A DNA stretch of 43,505 nt from Verrucomicrobiota bacterium (GTDB lineage: Bacteria > Verrucomicrobiota > Verrucomicrobiia > Verrucomicrobiales > DEV007): contig JAJRVS010000045.1 in assembly GCA_024277195.1 (NCBI GenBank), positions 1 to 43,505 on the forward strand, written 5' to 3'. Every line of letters starts with the position of its first letter. The first letter of the stretch is position 1. Below are positions 2,913 through 43,505 of this stretch, in pieces. The position numbers and the translations under genes were made by a program. A model generated the notes under the pieces. It had not been told where the DNA came from. It saw only the letters and a list, made by a program, of their open reading frames with translations, and searched no databases.

Positions 2913-4244
2913 ATGAAAACCACTTCTCGATTCCAATCCAAGCTACGGCAATGGCAAATAGCTGTAATGGCAGTGATCCTCACTACTGGATCAGTTTTGC
3001 TTGTTACACCTGTGATCGCACAAAATGTTTACGTCGATGAAGATCAAACAACCAGCGCGCCCAGCTCTTTCATTCTACCCTATGTCTATAGCTCTGATCA
3101 GACGGATCTAGCCTTTGGCCTGGGCGGTGTTCGCCGGGGCTTTCTGCAACCCCAGGGTGTCTCTGCTGGGGGAATCCAGGCTACGAGTAACGGATCCTAT
3201 GGGCTTTTCCTCGCAGCAATGAATTACCAGATGCCTTTTGCCGAACGCTGGTTTCTCGACCCCCTGCTAACCGTCAATAGGTTTACGGCATTGCGCTCTT
3301 ACCAGGACATCAGCCCCCAGACTGGGAATGACCGTTCGGGCAGCAACGGCTCGGCTGAGGGTGATTATATCGAACACAAAGGTTGGGATGTTTACATGGA
3401 GTTCAGAACTAAATGGCTGCTACCCATTGGCCATGGCAGAGATGACATTCTCCACACCTACCATCTGCGCAACGGCCTGTTGCCGGATGACAAGGATGTC
3501 ACCGGCGGTGTCGCATTCAATCCGTTGGTCAGCGGTCGCAGCTATGTCACCCTCACTCCTTTTTACAGAAGCCAGCAATTTGATAAAGACTCTGATGACA
3601 TTTTGTTATCTTCTTCCAACGGAATTCAGCTTGGCTTGCTTTGGAACAACAAAGACTTCGAAGCAAGCCCGTCAAAAGGTGAGAAAATCGAATTCATCGC
3701 CAAACGTGACTTCGGCTGGTTCGATAGCGATGCGTCCTGGACCACCTGGGAAGCCGAGGTCAGTAAGTTCATTTCATTAGGGAAAACATCATGGGCAAGG
3801 CAACAGGTTCTTGCGCTTGATTTCTGGACTGCCGACACCCCGAGCTGGGATAATAACAATGGAACCATTTCTAATCGAGCACCCGATTTTTATTCCCCAA
3901 AATTAGGTGGCTTCAATCGCATGAGAGCCTTCCCTTTTGAACGCTTCAATGACCGGTCTTCAATCTATTACGCCGCTGAGTATCGAGTGATTCCCGAGTG
4001 GAACCCTTGGGCAGATATCAACTGGATAAACAATTGGCTCGACATCGATTGGTGGCAGATCGTTCCCTTTGCCGAGTTAGGTCGGGTGGCTCCCAGTTAT
4101 GACTTGGGTGAACTGCACAAAGACATGAAATGGGATGCCGGCATCGGCATTCGCTTCATGGCAAAAAAGAGTGTACTGCGCCTCGATTGGGCCGCTTCCG
4201 AAGAGTCCACCGGACTATGGTTCATGTTCGGACAAACTTTCTAA
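2913..4244 (+). CDS. Omp85-type outer-membrane beta-barrel without POTRA domains
   Basis: 443 aa from ATG 2913, chosen because the signal peptide begins there: a basic start, hydrophobic stretch VILTTGSVLLVTPVIA, and cleavage after AQ. The mature protein is rich in alternating aromatic strands and ends in FMFGQTF, a terminal Phe typical of outer-membrane barrels. LGGFNRMRAFPFERFNDRSS followed by an EYR strand resembles the bacterial surface antigen (D15/Omp85) barrel with its GG...RG/RxFP signature. No POTRA repeats fit before the barrel, so this is not BamA itself; it resembles the short Omp85-like barrels. Role unknown: assembly, secretion or porin. Confidence 0.65.
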   Translation: MKTTSRFQSKLRQWQIAVMAVILTTGSVLLVTPVIAQNVYVDEDQTTSAPSSFILPYVYSSDQTDLAFGLGGVRRGFLQPQGVSAGGIQATSNGSYGLFLAAMNYQMPFAERWFLDPLLTVNRFTALRSYQDISPQTGNDRSGSNGSAEGDYIEHKGWDVYMEFRTKWLLPIGHGRDDILHTYHLRNGLLPDDKDVTGGVAFNPLVSGRSYVTLTPFYRSQQFDKDSDDILLSSSNGIQLGLLWNNKDFEASPSKGEKIEFIAKRDFGWFDSDASWTTWEAEVSKFISLGKTSWARQQVLALDFWTADTPSWDNNNGTISNRAPDFYSPKLGGFNRMRAFPFERFNDRSSIYYAAEYRVIPEWNPWADINWINNWLDIDWWQIVPFAELGRVAPSYDLGELHKDMKWDAGIGIRFMAKKSVLRLDWAASEESTGLWFMFGQTF

Positions 4245-4274
4245 GCTGCGTAGCCTTTAGGCTCCCCCCATTCT

Positions 4275-4305
4275 TATCCGCGTAAATCCGTGTGATCCGT
4301 GGTCA
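4275..4305. repeat. Dispersed ACCAC/GTGGT word
   Basis: This stretch, read on the minus strand, is TGACCACGGATCACACGG followed by a similar repeat. Similar degenerate words occur at 29281-29301, 30362-30392 and 33538-33570, all intergenic or at gene edges. I recall this type of sequence as a common intergenic word in several phyla. Function unknown. Confidence 0.4.
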
Positions 4306-4315
4306 AAAACTCCCC

Positions 4316-5170
4316 TTATTCAGCACTCAGCAACTGAATAAGCTGCCCGTCGATATAACTCAGAATATCATTGTGCCCCGCCTGCGGCACCGGATGAAAT
4401 GCCACCAAATTGGTAAATTCTCGTCCCAGTGATTGACCCATCGCATAGGGGATCATCTTATCCTCTTCCCCGTGAAACATCACCACCCGTGCCTGCTCGT
4501 TTTTTTGTAAAGCCTGCAATGACTTCACATTATCAAAGCGGTGTCGCAGCAGGTAAACAATCGGCTTGCCCACCACCCGCTCAGCCATCGCCGTCATCGT
4601 AGTGAAAGGAGAAATCACCACCACCTCCCGCACTCCCCGTTCCACCGCCACCTCAAGCGCCACCGCAGCCCCCAGCGAATGCCCCACGCACGACAAGCTC
4701 TTCTCCAAGTCACTCAGGGGCAGCTCCCATTCATCCGCCAGCAAGCGCAGAGCTCCCGCCACGCTCTGCTGTATCGTGCACGGATCCGGCCGGCCTTCGC
4801 ACCAGCCGTAACCGGGATAATCTATCAGCAAAAATCCCACATCCGCCTCCACTGGCACCCGGTGGATCAGCGCCAACCAATCCAACGCCCGTGCTCCATT
4901 GCCGCCAAACATCAGCCACACCTTCTTCGCCCGATCCTCCCCAAAATACACTGCCTGCTGTTGACCTTGCGATGTTTGAAACGACAACAGCCGGTTCTTC
5001 CTGCCCGTCCTCAACTCCTGCGCCAGAATCTGTCCCGGTGGGCGGGCATAAGCCTGCGGCAAATAGATGATCCTATCCTGGGCGAAGTAGAAAAACGCAG
5101 CAATACTGGTCACTCCGAAAATTACGGTCAATAATACCATCTTCAATAATCTGCGCCACTTTTTTCCCAT
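4316..5170 (-). CDS. Membrane-anchored alpha/beta hydrolase
   Basis: 284 aa, alpha/beta-hydrolase fold of the BEM46/ABHD13-17 type. An N-terminal transmembrane helix (about residues 9-30) anchors it with the catalytic domain outside the cytoplasm. The nucleophile elbow GHSLGA puts Ser165 in place; the likely acid is Asp237 (HGEEDK) and the base His266 (AGHND). LIDYPGYGWCEG corresponds to the region after the oxyanion strand. Substrate cannot be told: esterase, acyl-thioesterase or peptidase are all possible. It is followed downstream by the convergent barrel gene and lies downstream of the HtrA-like gene, separated from it by a terminator. Confidence 0.85.
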   Translation of the reverse strand: MGKKWRRLLKMVLLTVIFGVTSIAAFFYFAQDRIIYLPQAYARPPGQILAQELRTGRKNRLLSFQTSQGQQQAVYFGEDRAKKVWLMFGGNGARALDWLALIHRVPVEADVGFLLIDYPGYGWCEGRPDPCTIQQSVAGALRLLADEWELPLSDLEKSLSCVGHSLGAAVALEVAVERGVREVVVISPFTTMTAMAERVVGKPIVYLLRHRFDNVKSLQALQKNEQARVVMFHGEEDKMIPYAMGQSLGREFTNLVAFHPVPQAGHNDILSYIDGQLIQLLSAE

Positions 5171-5293: not shown

Positions 5294-6811
5294 TTACTTA
5301 ATTCTAACTGCGATGATATCTCTTCGCCCCTGTTCGTAAACCTGGAGCAACAGCACCTCACCGGTAAACCCCTTCAACTGCTGGGTCGCCTGCGCCACAT
5401 TGGTCACCGCTTTCTGATTGATCTGGGTGATCACCTGACCCGCTCTCAAACCCGATTGCGCTGCCGGGCCACCCTTATCAACCGATTCGACCATCACCCC
5501 TGACACATCAGCTGCGAAACCGAGAGCCTTGGCTGTTTCCGGATCCAAGTCGCGTATCACGATGCCCTCCACCAGTTTCTGCGTCTTCACCTTTTCTTCA
5601 GGTTTTTCCGGTTCGGGTGTCGCCGCACCGAGTTTCTGCGTCCGCACTCCTAGGTCACCGAGTTCCACATCCTTGTTTTCCTTTTTGCCATTGCGCAGCA
5701 ACTCAAAACCTACTTTTTTACCCGGCTCGGTATTACTGATCGCCAAACGGAGTTTGGCCATGCTGTTGACCGCTTGGCCTTGGTATCCAAGGATCAAATC
5801 CCCTGGTCGGAAACCCGCTTTTTCCGCCGGAGTGCCCTGACCCACTTCGGTCACCATCACCCCCTTACGATCATCACGCCCTAGCGCCTTAGCCATGTCC
5901 GCATTGATGTCCTTTAAATAAACCCCGAGGAAACCACGTGGCACACTGCCACCCGAGTCGAGTAGTTTTTCCACAATGCCGAGTGCCATGTTCACCGGAA
6001 TCGAAAAGCCTATGCCGATGTTTCCACCACCCATCCCTGGACGAATCGCAGTATTGATCCCCACCAGGCGGCCCTGCGCATCCATCAGCGCTCCACCGGA
6101 ATTACCCTGATTGATCGAAGCGTCGGTTTGGATAAAATTTTCATATCCTCCACCGGTGATCCCCAGATTGCTACGCCCCAAAGCAGAAACAATACCCATC
6201 GTCACCGACTGTTCAAGACTGAACGGATTCCCGATCGCCAGCATCACATCGCCCACTCTCAATTTGGAACTGTCACCCAGGGTCGCTGGTTTCAATCCGG
6301 TCGCTTCAATTTTGATCAATGCCACATCCGTCTGCGGATCAGCACCCACCACTCGGGCGTCATAATCTTTTTTAGTGCCCGCCAAAGTCACCTTGACCTT
6401 GGTGCCCTTGCCGCCCACCACATGATTGTTGGTCAGAATATAACCATCCGAGGTGATGATGATGCCCGAGCCCAAACCCTCCTGCTTGTGTTGTTCCGGC
6501 ATTTCAAAATCTTCCGGCAAACCGAAAAATTTGCGGAACCGCGGATCCTCAAACATCTGCGAACGCTGACGCGGACGCTTCACTTCCTTGGAAGAAAGAA
6601 TCGTCACCACCGAAGAAGTCACCTGCTCGATGACATCGGCGTAAGAAGTCACGATCCCCGCCTGTTTTTTCAAGGGTGTTTTATCAAACTTCAGGTTTTT
6701 GTTCAGTTCATCGAACTTGACGTCCTTTGCCTGAACCACACTGCCCGCCGCGAGGAAAAAAACCATCATCAGCGCCCCGGTTATTTTTATTAAGTTTTTC
6801 ATCATTTTCAT
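5294..6811 (-). CDS. degP: HtrA/Deg-family periplasmic serine protease
   Basis: 505 aa: signal peptide (residues 1-28, cleavage near VQA-KD), trypsin-like protease domain (about 55-285), and two PDZ domains (about 290-385 and 415-505). The catalytic triad is visible: His130 in TNNHVV, Asp162 in TDVALIK and Ser238 in GNSGG. Family members degrade or refold damaged envelope proteins, and two PDZ domains match DegP/DegQ/MucD architecture. Start is 6811; Met at 6802 is an alternative. It is divergent from the MoeB-like gene and has its own terminator at 5222-5257. Whether it is DegP, DegQ or MucD cannot be fixed from sequence alone, so the symbol marks the family. Confidence 0.95.
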   Translation of the reverse strand: MKMMKNLIKITGALMMVFFLAAGSVVQAKDVKFDELNKNLKFDKTPLKKQAGIVTSYADVIEQVTSSVVTILSSKEVKRPRQRSQMFEDPRFRKFFGLPEDFEMPEQHKQEGLGSGIIITSDGYILTNNHVVGGKGTKVKVTLAGTKKDYDARVVGADPQTDVALIKIEATGLKPATLGDSSKLRVGDVMLAIGNPFSLEQSVTMGIVSALGRSNLGITGGGYENFIQTDASINQGNSGGALMDAQGRLVGINTAIRPGMGGGNIGIGFSIPVNMALGIVEKLLDSGGSVPRGFLGVYLKDINADMAKALGRDDRKGVMVTEVGQGTPAEKAGFRPGDLILGYQGQAVNSMAKLRLAISNTEPGKKVGFELLRNGKKENKDVELGDLGVRTQKLGAATPEPEKPEEKVKTQKLVEGIVIRDLDPETAKALGFAADVSGVMVESVDKGGPAAQSGLRAGQVITQINQKAVTNVAQATQQLKGFTGEVLLLQVYEQGRRDIIAVRIK

Positions 6812-6996
6812 TTATCTACGTTTGTCTGTTTTTATTTATTTCTCCCGGCTGCCCCCTCCTCTTTATCCATTCATCCTAAAAAGCCGGCATCTCTGTTCTC
6901 TGTGCTTGAAAGCGTCGCAATTCCGAGTTCTTGTTTATATTGTCAGCAGGCTTAAAATCTGACTACTTAATTCTGAACTCCAACTTCTTCTGCCCA

Positions 6997-8181
6997 ATGA
7001 ACTCGATTATCGATCCCGCACGACTCGAAGAATGCCAACTGACCCCACAGGAATACCAGCGCTACGCCCGCCACCTCAGCATTCCCGAGGTGGGTGAAGA
7101 AGGCCAGCGCCGCCTGAAGGCTGCCGCCGTCCTGTGCATCGGAGCCGGCGGACTGGGCTCTCCCATCGCCATGTATCTGGCCGCCGCCGGAGTCGGACGG
7201 CTCGGCCTGGTCGATAACGATGTGGTGGATTTTTCCAACCTGCAACGCCAGATCCTGCACGGCACCGCTGACGTGGATCGCCCGAAACTGGACTCCGCGC
7301 TCGACACGCTGCGCGACATCAATCCCGAAGTTACCGTCGACACTTATCAAGAGCGCTTCACCAGCGACAACGCCCGCCAAATCGCCGAACCCTACGACAT
7401 CATCATCGACGGCACCGACAACTTCGCCACCCGTTACCTCAGCAACGACCTCGCCGTGCTCACCGGCAAACCCAACGTCTACGGCTCGATTTTTCGCTTC
7501 GAAGGGCAGTGCTCGGTCTTTGCGCCACATCTCGGCGGCCCCTGTTACCGCTGCATGTTCCCCGAACCACCCGAACCGGGCATGGTGCCCTCCTGCGCCG
7601 AAGGCGGGGTGCTCGGAGTGCTACCCGGAGTAGTGGGAAACATGCAAGCCATCGAAGCGATCAAGCTGATCATCGGCATCGGCACCCCTTTGCTCGGTCG
7701 CCTGATCCACTTCGATGCGCTCAACTTCCGCTTCCGCGATTTCAAACTGCGCCGCGACCCCGAGTGTCCGGTCTGTGGAACCCACCCCAGCATCACCGAG
7801 TTGATCGACTACGACGAATTCTGTGGTGTAGGGCGCGGCAATGCATCCACCGACCAGTTGCCCGAAATCGACGTGCACGAACTCAAAAACCGCATCGAAC
7901 AACGCCAGCAACGCCCCTTTGTATTGCTCGACGTGCGCGAAGCCAACGAACAAAAAATCTGCTGCCTGCCCGATGCGGTCTTAATCCCCCTGGGGGAACT
8001 TGCCCATCGCTTGGATGAACTCGACCGCGACAGCGAAATCATCATTCACTGCAAAGCCGGCGGCCGCAGTGCCAAAGCCCTCGATCTATTGATCAGCAGC
8101 GGTTTCGAAAACAGCAGCCACGTGCAAGGAGGCATCGACGCCTGGTCGAAGCATATTGATCCTCAAGTGCCAAGGTATTAA
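6997..8181 (+). CDS. moeB: MoeB/ThiF-type adenylyltransferase fused to rhodanese
   Basis: 394 aa from ATG 6997, the start at which similarity to the family begins. The E1-like domain (about 15-250) has the nucleotide loop IGAGGLGSP, zinc cysteines C183/C186 and C257/C260, and Cys200 in SCAEGG as the likely thioester residue. The C-terminal rhodanese domain (285-394) has the persulfide loop HCKAGGRS with Cys352. It adenylates the C-terminal Gly of a ubiquitin-like sulfur carrier (MoaD, ThiS or CysO) and thiolates it, as in MoeZ/MOCS3. No carrier gene lies nearby. A Trm112-like gene starts 10 bp downstream and is probably co-transcribed. Confidence 0.93.
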   Translation: MNSIIDPARLEECQLTPQEYQRYARHLSIPEVGEEGQRRLKAAAVLCIGAGGLGSPIAMYLAAAGVGRLGLVDNDVVDFSNLQRQILHGTADVDRPKLDSALDTLRDINPEVTVDTYQERFTSDNARQIAEPYDIIIDGTDNFATRYLSNDLAVLTGKPNVYGSIFRFEGQCSVFAPHLGGPCYRCMFPEPPEPGMVPSCAEGGVLGVLPGVVGNMQAIEAIKLIIGIGTPLLGRLIHFDALNFRFRDFKLRRDPECPVCGTHPSITELIDYDEFCGVGRGNASTDQLPEIDVHELKNRIEQRQQRPFVLLDVREANEQKICCLPDAVLIPLGELAHRLDELDRDSEIIIHCKAGGRSAKALDLLISSGFENSSHVQGGIDAWSKHIDPQVPRY

Positions 8182-8191
8182 AATAACCATC

Positions 8192-8443
8192 ATGAAAATC
8201 TCACCCGATCTCATCAACATCCTTCGCTGCCCCGAATCTCAGCAAGAACTGACGATGGCGGACACTGAACTTCTATCCAAACTCAACCGCGCCATCGATC
8301 AAAAACAGCTTAAAAATCACGTGGGAGAACTTGTTGAAGAACCACTCGAAGCCGGACTGATCCGCTCAGACCGCCAACGCCTTTACCCGGTCAAGGACGA
8401 CTTCCCCATCATGCTGATCGACGAAGCGATCGATTTAAACTGA
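8192..8443 (+). CDS. Trm112-like (UPF0434) small protein
   Basis: 83 aa from ATG 8192, 10 bp after the MoeB-rhodanese stop. It has the typical ILRCPESQQELT start and the RLYPVKDDFPIMLIDEAI end of Trm112-family proteins. The family signature is usually two cysteine pairs; here only one Cys is present (LRCPES), so zinc binding may be lost. Eukaryotic and archaeal Trm112 activates methyltransferases; the bacterial role is poorly known. The length is slightly above the usual 60 aa because of a helical insertion (residues 20-55). Confidence 0.8.
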   Translation: MKISPDLINILRCPESQQELTMADTELLSKLNRAIDQKQLKNHVGELVEEPLEAGLIRSDRQRLYPVKDDFPIMLIDEAIDLN

Positions 8444-22520: not shown

Positions 22521-25238
22521 TCAACCATTGCCCGGCACGATGCTCGGCCATTCTGATCGATCAAAAGAATCATTCACCTCCTTGGGGGTTCTTTTTTTGA
22601 ACCAAAGAAACCCCCTTCTCTTTTTCACCTTGGGAGGATTCACCTGAAATGATCGAGCTTGCTCACGGGTCGGTTGCCCCGCTTCAGGAAAACTTCGGGC
22701 AACTTCCTCCCCCACCAAAGTGCGAGCGTCTTCATCACGGCTCGCAGCTTTTAACGATTTTTCATCATCGACAATGGTTGGCTGGATAAAAATCAACAAC
22801 TCCGAACGTTTGTTGCCTCGTCTGGTATTTTTCACCAGATAGCCCAATACCGGAACTCGACTCAAAAATGGCACCCCGGTATCCGCATCATTGTTCTCCT
22901 CGGAAATCAAACCTCCCAAGACGATGGTATGACGATGCGGCACCGTCACCGTGGTATTCAACTCCTGGGTTCCGATGATCGGCACCTCGCTGCCAGCCAC
23001 TATGGTCGTCCCAATCACATTATCATTCACCTGCACAATATCCAAAGTTACCTGATTTTCCCTATTGATCGTCGGCACCACTTCGAGTTTCAAGACCACA
23101 TCCTCAAAATCAATCGTGGTGCGTACCGCCGTGGTATTCACATTATTCGTCGTATCAGACAAACTCTCTCTCGGCACCGGAATTTTCGAACCCGAGGTGA
23201 TCTCTGCCCGCTTACCATTTTGAGTATAAACCACTGGCCGGGACAATACTTTAAAACGATCCGTGCTCTCAAGTGCGGTGATAAACACATCCAGAGAGTC
23301 TCCAAGCTGCCCATAAACATTCAATCCATCTGCTGGGCCAAAGGGCGTGGTCACCACATTACTGCGCAAATCATCCACATTCCGGTTAGTGATCACATCA
23401 CGACGGGAATTGAACAAACTGCTGGCAATGCCCCCGGCTGCCGGGTTTGCTGAATCAAATTGAGTATAACGCTGAAGATAATCAATACCAAACTCTACCC
23501 CCTCCTCCAGCTGCAACTGACCAATCACTGTTGCCAGATAAACCTGTAGGGGTTTGCGATCTAGAATATCAATAATTTTGGAAACCAGCTTCTTGGATTC
23601 ATCTGACCCAATCACAATAATCGCATTGCCATGGCGGTCAGCAATGATCCGCGTTTTGCCCACCAAAACTGAAATAGGAGCCACATCATCCACAGGGAAA
23701 GCCAATTGATCCGCTCTGCCCGAACTGTCAGCCGCATTGCCCTGCACCCGCGTTTGCTGCTGCCTGTTCTGGGTTCCGGTCAAAGCCGATAGCTGTGACG
23801 AAGTGACCGGAGTCGGACGGGTATTGATCTGTCGGCCACCGGGCAAAATCGTCTGCCCCGTTCCTGTATCCTGTAAAATATCGACCACCACCGGCAGAAT
23901 ATCATTAGCTTTCACATAATTCAACGGGCGCTCCAACGCGTCTTCAGAAACCAAGGGTTGATCAAATTCCTTGATCATCTGCAACACATACGCAAGATCC
24001 TGGGGCGATGCGACGACCATGATCCGGTTCAGCCGATCATCAGGAATCAACTGAGCCGCCGGACGTTCCGCCGTGCCGATTCCGTTATTCGCCACCCCTT
24101 GGGTCGAACCTCGAACCAGTTGTCCGCTCGCCGTCCTGACCGTCACCTGCTGGGAGCTCGCTGGGCGATTGGGTTTATTGTTTTTAGTAGCCGTTGCGGC
24201 CTGCACCTTGCCACTCAAAGTCCGCCCGGACTCGCTCATGCGCAGACTTTCCTCCATCCGGGCATCCATCGCCGCTTGAATAATCTGCGACACCACATTC
24301 GCCTCGGCATATTTGATCTTCACAAACTCCGTCATCAGCGGAGCATCTTCCGGCACCACATCGATCAGCTCTTTCAACTTGATAAACTGGCGGATGATCG
24401 ACGCATTTTCTGTGATCAACAAACCCGGGGGCGTAGCGATCGGGGTCACCCGGCCAAACGAATGCAAAGTAACGTGATTGGCAAAAATCGTCGCCAGCTC
24501 CTCCGGATCCATAAAACGAACCCCCATATAATAAGCCACCAAGGTATCTCCATGCGGCAAAGACTCCGGCGTAGTGAACATCAGCAAACCTTCGGTAAAT
24601 GAAGACGCCGGACTTTTTCCCCCTGAAGCCCTCAGTACTTTAACCGTTTTCCCCTCTTCACCCTGAACAAGAACATAACCGTTAGTGATCAGAGAAGCTT
24701 CGATCAAACGTATCGCATCCTCCTTGCTGACCTCCACCGGTGTCACCAGACTGATCTGTGGCCCATCAAAAATAGTGGTATCCTTGATGATCGTCTTTCC
24801 CACCAAGCGCTCGTAAATATTCAAAATATCCGACACCGGATTGAGCGGAAATTGCAAGCTCACCCGATCCCCACCAGGTCGTCGCGAAGTGTCCGGCCGC
24901 CCCCCTCCTATCGGTGGACGCGGGGCTTGATTGTTTGGCTTCGTCTCAGTTGCAGGAGCAGGAACCGTTACGATCGTTTTCCCCTTGGCTTCCGTAGCTT
25001 TCTCCTGCGGTTCTTCTTCGACCTTTTTAACCGCATTCGCCGCCGCTGCCGCCGCTTTCTTGCTTTGAGCCAGAATCTGCAAGTTGCGATTCACTCGGGG
25101 CGCCCTAGCTGTCTGACCACTCGCCACTGCGCCAGTCAAAGCCAAAATACCGCCCAGTAACCAAGCCGCCGCCTGACGCTTGGGATTTCCTCCCAAACGG
25201 TACACCGCTACCTTGAAACTTTTTACACTTACTGCCAT
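22521..25238 (-). CDS. gspD: Type II secretion secretin GspD-like
   Basis: 905 aa. Signal region at the N-terminus, then N-domains: about 130-200 (NPVSDILNIYERLVGKTIIKD) and later segments (PLMTEFVKIKYAEANVVSQIIQAA; DDRLNRIMVVASPQDLAYVLQMIKEFD), followed by the secretin channel domain (about 560-850) with VPVLGYLVKNT near its C-terminal end and GGLISEENND. It forms the outer-membrane gate of a type II system. The start at 25238 has a GGGGAAGA purine-rich sequence about 8 nt upstream. The only apparent partner here is the GspC-like gene directly upstream; other gsp genes are not in the window. Confidence 0.9.
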   Translation of the reverse strand: MAVSVKSFKVAVYRLGGNPKRQAAAWLLGGILALTGAVASGQTARAPRVNRNLQILAQSKKAAAAAANAVKKVEEEPQEKATEAKGKTIVTVPAPATETKPNNQAPRPPIGGGRPDTSRRPGGDRVSLQFPLNPVSDILNIYERLVGKTIIKDTTIFDGPQISLVTPVEVSKEDAIRLIEASLITNGYVLVQGEEGKTVKVLRASGGKSPASSFTEGLLMFTTPESLPHGDTLVAYYMGVRFMDPEELATIFANHVTLHSFGRVTPIATPPGLLITENASIIRQFIKLKELIDVVPEDAPLMTEFVKIKYAEANVVSQIIQAAMDARMEESLRMSESGRTLSGKVQAATATKNNKPNRPASSQQVTVRTASGQLVRGSTQGVANNGIGTAERPAAQLIPDDRLNRIMVVASPQDLAYVLQMIKEFDQPLVSEDALERPLNYVKANDILPVVVDILQDTGTGQTILPGGRQINTRPTPVTSSQLSALTGTQNRQQQTRVQGNAADSSGRADQLAFPVDDVAPISVLVGKTRIIADRHGNAIIVIGSDESKKLVSKIIDILDRKPLQVYLATVIGQLQLEEGVEFGIDYLQRYTQFDSANPAAGGIASSLFNSRRDVITNRNVDDLRSNVVTTPFGPADGLNVYGQLGDSLDVFITALESTDRFKVLSRPVVYTQNGKRAEITSGSKIPVPRESLSDTTNNVNTTAVRTTIDFEDVVLKLEVVPTINRENQVTLDIVQVNDNVIGTTIVAGSEVPIIGTQELNTTVTVPHRHTIVLGGLISEENNDADTGVPFLSRVPVLGYLVKNTRRGNKRSELLIFIQPTIVDDEKSLKAASRDEDARTLVGEEVARSFPEAGQPTREQARSFQVNPPKVKKRRGFLWFKKRTPKEVNDSFDRSEWPSIVPGNG

Positions 25239-30795: not shown

Positions 30796-31917
30796 TCAGC
30801 GCTTGACCTCCAGCACGCCCCTCTTCAAATCCCGCAGCACCCGCAACTCCCCCCACTGCGCCCCACGCATCTTCCGTCCGCCATCCTTACGCCGCGCACC
30901 AAAGTGATCCCTCTTGCTCTCAAAAAAATCATCCACATACCTCTGACTCCCCAACACCGCCCCATCAGTGAAATACCTCACCCTACATCTTAATGCCTCC
31001 GCCACCGGCAATCGCCCGCCTGATTCCAATACCTCTTTGATCTCCGCCCGACTGAAACCTCCCTTACCTTTGTTGTAACCGTCCACGGTTTCACTCGCTT
31101 TCACCTGTTCTCCCTTCGCATACAGTAAACACCGATACTCCTGCGCCACCTTCTTCCACGCCACCCGACTACGACCCGTCACCGCATAACACAGCCCCTG
31201 CCTCGCCCCGCGCACCCCGGCCACCGCCGCCGCATACGAACACCAACGGTAACCCTCCGGATCCTGCGCCAGCCCCGCACGCACCGGATTCAGATCAATA
31301 TAAGCCGCCACCATGCGCAGCGCATCACTGCTCCCCCCACTGCCTTCATCCGCCCCCCCCGACCGCCGAAGCCCCTTGTTCGCCGTAGCTTTAGCGAAGG
31401 AGGATGGCGAAGGAGGTTGTAAAAGCACACTCTTAAATGGCCCCTCCCACAAAGTCCCCACCCGGCCGTGTTTCCGATTATAAGCCAATGTTATTTTCAA
31501 CTTCAACTCCTTCATAAACATCGAAAGATCAAACAACCGCGCCCTCACCGATTCCACAATTTCGCTCACCTTCTCATCCGCTCCATTCTCACGAAACATC
31601 TCCACCTCATCCAACACCAACTTGCTCGACCACTCGTTCTTAAACACCTCTAGTCGCTTAATATAATCCTCATCCGTCCACCCCTCTGTCGCCAGCTCCC
31701 TATCCGGCACCTCCAACAACAAATGAAAGTGATTGCCCATAAAACACCAAGCCAACGCCCGCAGCCCACTAAATTTCAACTGCTTGAGCATCAAAATCCG
31801 AAAAGTTTCCTTTTCATCATCCTCAAACAAAATATCCCTCCCCGTCGTCCGGCTCACCACATGATAATAATTCGTCTGCCCCTCCGGCCCCAACAAAAAC
31901 TCCCGTATTTTCCTCAT
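30796..31917 (-). CDS. RAYT-type REP-associated tyrosine transposase with in-frame repeat insertion
   Basis: 373 aa from Met 31917 (the longer 5' extension lacks similarity). The Y1/HUH signature GNHFHLLLE (His63 and His65) and AAYIDLNPVRAGL (Tyr206, the likely nucleophile) are both present. Between them, residues about 168-199 (PPSPSSFAKATANKGLRRS and following) look like a repeat read in frame and absent from typical relatives. A C-terminal basic extension (residues about 230-373) follows. RAYTs cut REP palindromes; none was clearly identified next to this gene. A second run of coding repeats is likely inherited from insertion of the dispersed repeat. Confidence 0.8.
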   Translation of the reverse strand: MRKIREFLLGPEGQTNYYHVVSRTTGRDILFEDDEKETFRILMLKQLKFSGLRALAWCFMGNHFHLLLEVPDRELATEGWTDEDYIKRLEVFKNEWSSKLVLDEVEMFRENGADEKVSEIVESVRARLFDLSMFMKELKLKITLAYNRKHGRVGTLWEGPFKSVLLQPPSPSSFAKATANKGLRRSGGADEGSGGSSDALRMVAAYIDLNPVRAGLAQDPEGYRWCSYAAAVAGVRGARQGLCYAVTGRSRVAWKKVAQEYRCLLYAKGEQVKASETVDGYNKGKGGFSRAEIKEVLESGGRLPVAEALRCRVRYFTDGAVLGSQRYVDDFFESKRDHFGARRKDGGRKMRGAQWGELRVLRDLKRGVLEVKR

Positions 31918-32073
31918 AATTAATATCCTTTCCCAATCGCTTCGACTCCCCCGAATATTCCCTCTCCCTCCATAATACAACGACATCCTCCCCATACAAG
32001 AACTATTTTGCATGGGGATCCTCCCCTTTTATAAAAACTCGCAGCGAAATTTTAAGCTCCTACAACTCGCGGC

Positions 32074-41151: not shown

Positions 41152-42411
41152 ATGCATCCTCTCACATTCAAACATTCCCCCCCTGTTTTAATCTCTTGGC
41201 GATTGTTTATGATCACCCTTGCCACTATTTCCACCATTGCCATTTGCCAGCCTTCTGCTCAAACGGCAGAAAAATCCCGCACCTGGACTAGCAACGAAGG
41301 CAAGGAAATCAAGGGCAGCATCGTCTCTTTCGAAAACGATGAGCTCACTTTAAAAACCAGTCGGGGCAACTTCAAGTTTCCCCTTTCGCGGCTGAGCAAA
41401 GAAGATCAAAAATATGTCAATGAGTGGAAATCCAAAACTACTCCATCTTCACCCAACGGCAAAAGTGCAAATAGCGGCAAAGGTTCGATTGGAAATTTTG
41501 ACGATCTTAAATTGGGCGAATGGCCCAAATCTGTCTCCGCCGAATTCGAGCTCGATCAAATCCAGGTCGTCAAAGAAGATAAATCCGGAGAATACATCTA
41601 CCGCAGCCCGCACTTTGAATTTCAAAGCAACGTGCGCTTGTCAAAAAGCGTGGTGCGGGAGTTTTCACGAATTTTTGAAGCCACCTACGAATTGACAAAT
41701 GCCCTCCCTGTTGGACTCAATGCCCAACCTTCAAGCGAGGGGTATTATCTAACCCGGCTCTACGAACTGAAAGAACAATATTTTTCCAATGGTGGTATGC
41801 CAGGAAGCCTAGGAATGTTTGTTTTCAGAGGCGATAAAGGCATGATCCACATACCTCTAGGCAATCTGGGAGTAAAAAATACCGGCACGCGTTTTATCGT
41901 CGATACCAGTAAGCGCAGCAATACCCTCACCCACGAGATCACCCATCAGGTGATGATGCGCTGGTTGCCTCTCATGCCGATCTGGATGGCCGAAGGATTT
42001 GCTGAAGTCACCTCCTCCCAAATCTACAGCAAAGGACGCTTCCGGCTCACCGATACAGGGCGCGCGGTCAAAGATGCGATCACTCGCTACCGCGCCTCAC
42101 AGCGTGACTTTTCCATGCTGAACATCAAAAGCTTGATGACCATGTCTGACCAGAGCTGGAACTCGACCGCATCCCCGCGTGAAGCCGGACGGAACTACTC
42201 TTCAGCCAACTTGTTGCTCTACTATTTCCTCAGGATCGATGGTGATGGCAAGGGCGAACGCCTAGTGGATTATCTCAAGGCGGTGGTAGCAGGAACGGAC
42301 AAACAAGAAGCCTCCGTCGAGATCCTTTTAGCCGGACGCAGCTACGAACAATTGCAGCAAGAAGTCGCCGAAGGCTGGCGCAGCGAAGGGCTCAAGCTCA
42401 CCTTTCAATAA
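41152..42411 (+). CDS. Secreted SHD1-domain gluzincin-type protein, copy 1
   Basis: 419 aa from ATG 41152. Signal region up to about residue 38. RTWTSNEGKEIKGSIVSFEND (residues 43-63) begins a small SHD1-type barrel that ends near 95 (FPLSRLSKEDQKYVNEW). A linker leads to a C-terminal zinc-peptidase-like domain with HEITHQ (residues 261-266) and WMAEGFAEV (Glu281), the spacing of gluzincin HExxH...E ligands; it resembles DUF1570 proteins of planctomycetes. A second, paralogous gene follows 17 bp downstream. The actual substrate is unknown. Confidence 0.8.
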   Translation: MHPLTFKHSPPVLISWRLFMITLATISTIAICQPSAQTAEKSRTWTSNEGKEIKGSIVSFENDELTLKTSRGNFKFPLSRLSKEDQKYVNEWKSKTTPSSPNGKSANSGKGSIGNFDDLKLGEWPKSVSAEFELDQIQVVKEDKSGEYIYRSPHFEFQSNVRLSKSVVREFSRIFEATYELTNALPVGLNAQPSSEGYYLTRLYELKEQYFSNGGMPGSLGMFVFRGDKGMIHIPLGNLGVKNTGTRFIVDTSKRSNTLTHEITHQVMMRWLPLMPIWMAEGFAEVTSSQIYSKGRFRLTDTGRAVKDAITRYRASQRDFSMLNIKSLMTMSDQSWNSTASPREAGRNYSSANLLLYYFLRIDGDGKGERLVDYLKAVVAGTDKQEASVEILLAGRSYEQLQQEVAEGWRSEGLKLTFQ

Positions 42412-42428
42412 TCACTCGTTTATCTCCT

Positions 42429-43505
42429 ATGAAACCAGCACCAGCTCCCAATCCGGTCAAGGTCCACTCCCCCGCGGTGTCCTTGTGCCTCTTGATCTCT
42501 TTGTTCACTTTCTTTTTTACATGTTCCTTATCCGCTCAAGAAGATCGCTACTGGACCACCAAAGACGGCATCAAACACCGCGGCAGTCTCATGTTCATGT
42601 CCACAAAAAACGTGACGATCAAAGGCCCTGCCGGAATGATCTCACTGCCACTCAGCAAACTCAGCGACGAAGATTTGCTTTTCATCAAGCGCAGCAAATC
42701 CAATAGCAAAAAACTGCAAAATCCCGGAATCCCGATGAGCAAATTGCCGCCAGGCTTCAGCCGCGGCAAAGTCCCCCCATCCTCTAAGCCCGTCATGCCC
42801 ACCTCGCTCAAGCCACCCAGCAGCCCTCTACGCCCCTCCTCCTCACCAGCAAGCTCGTCAAAATGGCCAACAAAAGTCAAAACCACCTTCTCCCCCGCCG
42901 ATATCCAAACTGTCAGCGAAAACAAAAAAGAGGGTTACATCTACCGCAGCCCGCACTTCGAATTCCGCAGTCCCTTCCGACTGCCGCATCGGGCAGTACG
43001 CGAGTTTTCGCTGATATTTGAATCCACCTACGACCTTGCCAATGCCATGCCCATCGGCTTGCAAGCCAAACCCGGCGGCAACGGTTATTACATCACCGAA
43101 CTCTATTCCACCAATGAGGACTATTTCAACGCAGGCGGCCCCAGTGGCAGTGCCGGTGCCTTTTTTCCCCTTTTAGGGAAAATCCTGGTCCCCTTACCCA
43201 GCCTAGGAGTCGTACGCTCACAAAATAATGTCAAAGTGATTCGCGGCGCGGCAGGCAATACCCTCATCCACGAGGTCACCCACCAGGTGATGATGCGCTG
43301 GTTGCCGCTCATCCCTATTTGGATGGGAGAAGGTTTTGCCGAAGTCACTTCGGCCATGCCTTACGAGGCCGGTCTGTTCCGTCTTTCACGCATGTCCAAG
43401 TCCGTGCGCGAAAGCACCGGCAGTGGCCCCGGTGCGGGCCGTTCATTTAAAATGGTGCCCGTGCTGCAATTGATGAGTATGTCCCCACAGTCGTGGAGCG
43501 CCGCC
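42429..43505 (+). CDS. Secreted SHD1-domain gluzincin-type protein, copy 2, partial
   Basis: Starts at ATG 42429 and runs to the window edge without a stop, 359 codons visible. Signal peptide (CLLISLFTFFFTCSLSA), then YWTTKDGIKHRGSLMFMSTKN, SHD1-like as in copy 1, a Pro/Ser-rich linker, and the same peptidase-type region: YIYRSPHFEFRS is shared with copy 1, HEVTHQ at 281-286 and WMGEGFAEV. The linker is longer than in copy 1. It is a tandem paralog and the 3' end lies outside the window. Confidence 0.8.
   Translation, partial: MKPAPAPNPVKVHSPAVSLCLLISLFTFFFTCSLSAQEDRYWTTKDGIKHRGSLMFMSTKNVTIKGPAGMISLPLSKLSDEDLLFIKRSKSNSKKLQNPGIPMSKLPPGFSRGKVPPSSKPVMPTSLKPPSSPLRPSSSPASSSKWPTKVKTTFSPADIQTVSENKKEGYIYRSPHFEFRSPFRLPHRAVREFSLIFESTYDLANAMPIGLQAKPGGNGYYITELYSTNEDYFNAGGPSGSAGAFFPLLGKILVPLPSLGVVRSQNNVKVIRGAAGNTLIHEVTHQVMMRWLPLIPIWMGEGFAEVTSAMPYEAGLFRLSRMSKSVRESTGSGPGAGRSFKMVPVLQLMSMSPQSWSAA

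Follow-up and report, generated by a model that had tools for sequence, protein, structure and literature searches.

The nearest published idea that was found for the proteins described here concerns secreted bacterial chromo-like and SH3 domains that are fused to zincin-like peptidases and read as peptide-binding anchors (PMC5906684). According to that idea, peptides of the cell wall or the matrix are the anchoring points to which secreted SH3-fold domains attach their peptidases. P1 and P2, the products of two adjacent genes of a Verrucomicrobiales genome, resemble these proteins in joining a small SH3-fold binding domain to a predicted secreted peptidase. In contrast, the fused module in the published proteins is chromo-like or classical SH3, and SHD1, the module found in P1 and P2, is named there only as a co-occurring domain. 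SHD1 (PF03983) is known from Sla1 of yeast, a eukaryotic cytoplasmic endocytic adaptor, whereas the SHD1 of P1 and P2 is predicted to be secreted and is fused to a peptidase-like domain.

The C-terminal domain of P1 and P2 can be compared with several described families. DUF1570 (PF07607) covers the same HExxH core region and P1 passes its curated cut-off (23.4 vs 22 bits); however, only 14 of the 34 family members match it even at E up to 1, and the truncated P2 is unmatched. To our knowledge, no member of DUF1570 has been tested. The closest solved fold is that of the M9 bacterial collagenases (Z 15.5 over 218 residues of the collagenase unit 7esi, rmsd 3.3), but P1 is only 12–15% identical to them and the Pfam M9 model is weak on the family, reaching 6 of the 34 members with a best E of 0.036. 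M9 membership by sequence was rejected, as the same model matches neither P1 nor P2 even with an E limit of 10. M30 lugdulysin and the M1 aminopeptidases share the gluzincin-like fold (Z 9–12), whereas their identity is 7–15% and the M1 proteins are far larger and multi-domain. The literature searched on Sla1, SHD1 and NPFx comprises fungal, yeast and human-protein work, DUF1570 surfaces in a metagenome paper, and no paper was found that pairs SHD1 with Verrucomicrobi* or treats an SHD1-gluzincin family, in agreement with the claim that the family is poorly described.

The window analysed here has 43,505 bp and is the whole of one contig (C394) of a 5.49 Mb draft genome (G000). The P1 gene is complete (41152..42411, forward strand), running from the ATG at 41152 to a stop codon and encoding 419 residues; translation could alternatively start from another in-frame ATG at 41209. 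The P2 gene (42429..43505, forward strand) begins with an ATG 17 bp past the stop codon of P1, and 359 residues are visible before its frame runs off the contig at 43505. Because the window is the entire contig, P2 is incomplete and lacks its C-terminus. The short distance makes it likely that P1 and P2 are co-transcribed. The gene order is RecQ, thioredoxin, P1 and P2, and a scan for promoters and terminators found no signal above shuffled sequences. Farther upstream on the reverse strand, the window carries a type II/III secretion-type secretin that includes secretin N domains (22521–25238) and an IS200-type Y1 transposase-like protein (30796–32013; 26.5 bits, cut-off 23).

Both proteins begin with a hydrophobic, signal-like segment that was judged by eye and forms a helix in the AlphaFold2 models. 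For P1, the predicted Sec signal region comprises residues 1–39 (41152..41268), with the hydrophobic segment LFMITLATISTIAI and a modelled helix at residues 14–30. The label "secreted" thus stands as a prediction read by eye from the N-terminus, and P1 and P2 would be exported by Sec to the periplasm or the outside of the cell. In P1, the SHD1-like barrel follows at residues 43–95 (41278..41436), then a linker of 26 residues at about residues 96–122 (41437..41517; pLDDT below 50 at 98–111), and finally the gluzincin-type domain at residues 123–419 (41518..42408). The barrel of P2 spans residues 40–93 (42546..42707), with modelled strands at 40–74 and a helix at 80–93, and aligns with the homologues. 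It is followed by a Pro/Ser-rich linker of 51 residues (42708..42863; pLDDT below 50 for most of 94–143). The two linkers differ in length, as had been noted, and the length ranges from 3 to 51 residues over the family.

The evidence for the C-terminal domain comes from conservation and fold. In 34 sequences including P2, all from one order and divergent down to 25% identity, H261, E262, H265, W278 and E281 (P1 numbering) are invariant and form an HExxH-x15-E motif. The motif reads HEITH (261–265) to E281 in P1 (41932..41994) and HEVTH (281–285) to E301 in P2 (43269..43331). The AlphaFold2 model of P1, built with the 34 homologues, is confident in both domains (mean pLDDT 87.4, pTM 0.76), and the model of P2 contains the same two domains (pLDDT 78). 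Foldseek places the M9 peptidase domain of collagenase G first for the P1 model (E 1.7e-4), and VIA-align ranks M9 collagenases first (Z 15.5–12.4), followed by M30 lugdulysin (11.9) and the M1 aminopeptidases and LTA4 hydrolase (about 10). All of these structural neighbours are HExxH zinc peptidases. A match to the NCBIfam flagellinolysin model (18.8 vs 205 bits) was rejected, since it covers the HExxH stretch only. The predicted fold of the C-terminal domain is gluzincin-like in both P1 and P2, and the HExxH...E peptidase-like domain of the original prediction, for which a zinc-peptidase fold was one of the proposed checks, is borne out by the models and by the invariant predicted ligands.

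In this domain, a single zinc ion would be held by H261, H265 and E281, and E262 would activate a water molecule for cleavage of the peptide bond, as the conserved motif and the fold suggest. A tyrosine such as Y349 (42196..42198) may stabilise the transition state; the column contains Tyr in every sequence that reaches it. Likeness of fold is by itself no proof of activity, and the domain could be a pseudoenzyme that keeps the gluzincin fold for binding only. That reading is very improbable given that all the predicted ligands and the catalytic glutamate are retained across sequences as divergent as these. Peptidase activity, taken as a step on its own, is predicted with good confidence from the conservation and the models.

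The SHD1 assignment is confirmed by homologues, profile and predicted fold, and is thin on single sequences. P1 scores 15.5 bits against the SHD1 Pfam model, below the curated cut-off of 23.7, and P2 has no match. However, the SHD1 profile matches 25 of the 34 homologues (best E 2.8e-10), and the family profile in turn detects the yeast Sla1 SHD1 structure (PDB 2hbp) with an E of 8.6e-6. The barrel of the P1 model superposes on the same structure with an rmsd of 1.6 A and a TM score of 0.74 of the target. Profile searches, under which a spurious similarity was expected to vanish, made it stronger, and of the two profiles proposed as a check DUF1570 recognises P1 directly while PF03983 reaches the family through its homologues. 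The pairing of an N-terminal SHD1-like barrel with a peptidase-like domain in P1 and P2 is thereby confirmed, and it goes far beyond chance.

NPFxD is the ligand motif of eukaryotic SHD1, as for Sla1. In the window genome the motif is not enriched (26 DNA matches vs 30 in a reversed control, a weak and indirect test), which gives no indication of a ligand like that of Sla1.

SHD1 had been introduced as best known from eukaryotic adaptor proteins and planctomycete proteins, but it is not special to these. With an E limit of 0.01, the profile finds 15 places in the window genome, seven of them above the cut-off, and the domain is present in 30 of 38 relatives. Its partners in the inspected proteins of the window genome are FGE-sulfatase, PQQ propeller, PSCyt2/PSD1, thioredoxin, HMA, C39-like peptidase and 3-keto-disaccharide-hydrolase-like domains, and some copies have no known partner; in relatives, SHD1 also occurs with leucine-rich and ankyrin repeats. 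Most of these inspected SHD1 proteins begin with a signal-like segment. SHD1 is thus a module that recurs commonly in bacterial proteins with predicted secretion. One further locus of this genome (L033, within L006–L036) encodes an M48-like zincin with an HEVGH motif, in which SHD1 comes from the genome search only.

The position of SHD1 at the N-terminus, ahead of a flexible linker, would also fit a propeptide, a pro-domain that shields the active site for inhibition or assists folding and is cut off once the protein has been secreted. However, SHD1 also stands ahead of PQQ propellers, thioredoxins, FGE-like, PSCyt2/PSD1, HMA, ankyrin and leucine-rich repeat proteins, in which there is no protease to inhibit, and in one thioredoxin protein (L035) it lies on the C-terminal side. 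Its occurrence on many unrelated partners is more in keeping with binding than with the role of a pro-domain, which is accordingly improbable. A different reading treats SHD1 as a sorting or docking tag of many secreted proteins, with the peptidases being just two of many enzymes on a common partner. The number and spread of the SHD1 matches on very different proteins speak for it, but the copies are strongly divergent in sequence and could equally bind different peptides independently, and the partner or scaffold is only hypothetical; we consider this reading possible though unlikely. Its most general form is doubtful: that SHD1 serves in Verrucomicrobiales as a general docking module through which exported peptidases, PQQ propellers, thioredoxins, sulfatase-activator-like and PSCyt2/PSD1 proteins meet one shared surface or periplasmic partner. 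If true, it would be a bacterial parallel to the use of SHD1 by eukaryotic adaptors.

The reading preferred here, with a probability of roughly 60% as a whole, is that P1 and P2 are secreted zinc endopeptidases tethered by a peptide-binding SHD1 domain. The barrel would be non-catalytic and probably peptide-binding, and on its variable linker it would keep the enzyme close to the substrate, or to a partner on the surface or in the periplasm, as Sla1 SHD1 and other secreted SH3-fold domains suggest by analogy. Of the whole finding, it is SHD1 that merits an experiment, and its binding behaviour would bear on the role of many unexplained secreted proteins together.

SHD1-gluzincin genes also occur beside another kind of predicted peptidase gene. 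One of them overlaps a C39-like peptidase gene, as a unit of two genes, in the window genome, in its congener G001 and in another genus, G017 (L003:263–1501 and 1498–2757; L083:2375–3610 and 3607–4848; L080:7698–9116 and 6418–8208, both on the reverse strand). The two predicted peptidases are of different kinds, and their pairing is conserved.

The peptidase domain is present in five copies in the window genome, which lie on four contigs: the P1 and P2 pair, and one copy each on C248, C43 and C163. Only P1 and P2 are adjacent, and the original prediction took the tandem arrangement for a local expansion. Adjacency on one strand and a like architecture would agree with a recent tandem duplication, and in a small tree P1 groups with the P2 clade, albeit at 77/83 support, which is not significant. 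However, identity between P1 and P2 is only 40% across 356 aligned columns, and P1 is closer to genes of other genera (48–53%); a tree constrained to group P1 with those genes is not rejected (p-AU 0.46). Moreover, the P2 clade consists of the window genome and its congeners G001 and G002 (support 100/100), and both congeners have the P2 orthologue at the same locus without P1. In G001, RecQ directly adjoins the P2 orthologue with neither thioredoxin nor P1 between them, and in G002 the start of a relative of the thioredoxin protein lies directly beside it. Within the sample, P1 next to P2 is private to the window genome. P1 is therefore no fresh copy of P2; judging from the sequences, the two are an old and divergent pair. 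A recent duplication is quite improbable, and one specific to this genome is largely refuted. As divergent paralogues, P1 and P2 probably have different targets. Just downstream of the P2 orthologue of G001, a frame on the reverse strand (L070:2–424) resembles by eye the N-terminal part of a phage-type tyrosine recombinase.

Around HExxH, the two genes share a block of DNA with 87% identity, for which gene conversion between P1 and P2 was considered. The rate of identical codons in the block is 0.62 for P1 and P2, 0.61 for P1 and the G002 orthologue, and 0.43–0.57 for P1 and the genes of other genera. Gene conversion was rejected, because rates that are alike across these comparisons mark the block as ordinary active-site conservation. 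The thioredoxin and RecQ neighbours of P1 are absent beside its relatives in other genera and give no clue from neighbourhood. Neighbouring family copies are found elsewhere, adjacent in G040 and 2–3 kb apart in G033 and G017. The adjacent pair of G040 (L079:4693–5982 and 6075–7685), a genome from a different family of the order, lies on very long branches, which indicates that pairing recurs without recent duplication.

Beyond the window genome, the family is widespread in its order. Matches to P1 at E 1e-8 or better were found in 52 of the 57 genomes searched, including the window genome. G025 and G056 are among the few genomes that match P1 at the N-terminal SHD1 part only, so the count for the peptidase is slightly below 52. 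In a phylum-wide sample of 96 genomes, full-length profile matches were confined to the same order, and those in other orders were limited to the SHD1 part or to a short stretch. No relatives of the family were found among viral contigs. The SHD1-gluzincin proteins seem to be an order-wide and undescribed family that combines known domains, and the comparison gives a name to a predicted secreted zinc peptidase family found in most of the sampled relatives in the order. In one relative, a Verrucomicrobiales MAG (L040, JAGPCC010000060.1), the family gene lies in two overlapping frames (503–1620) and is thus either broken or misassembled; the second protein after it, on the reverse strand (2962–5097), is an SHD1-PSCyt2-PSD1 protein.
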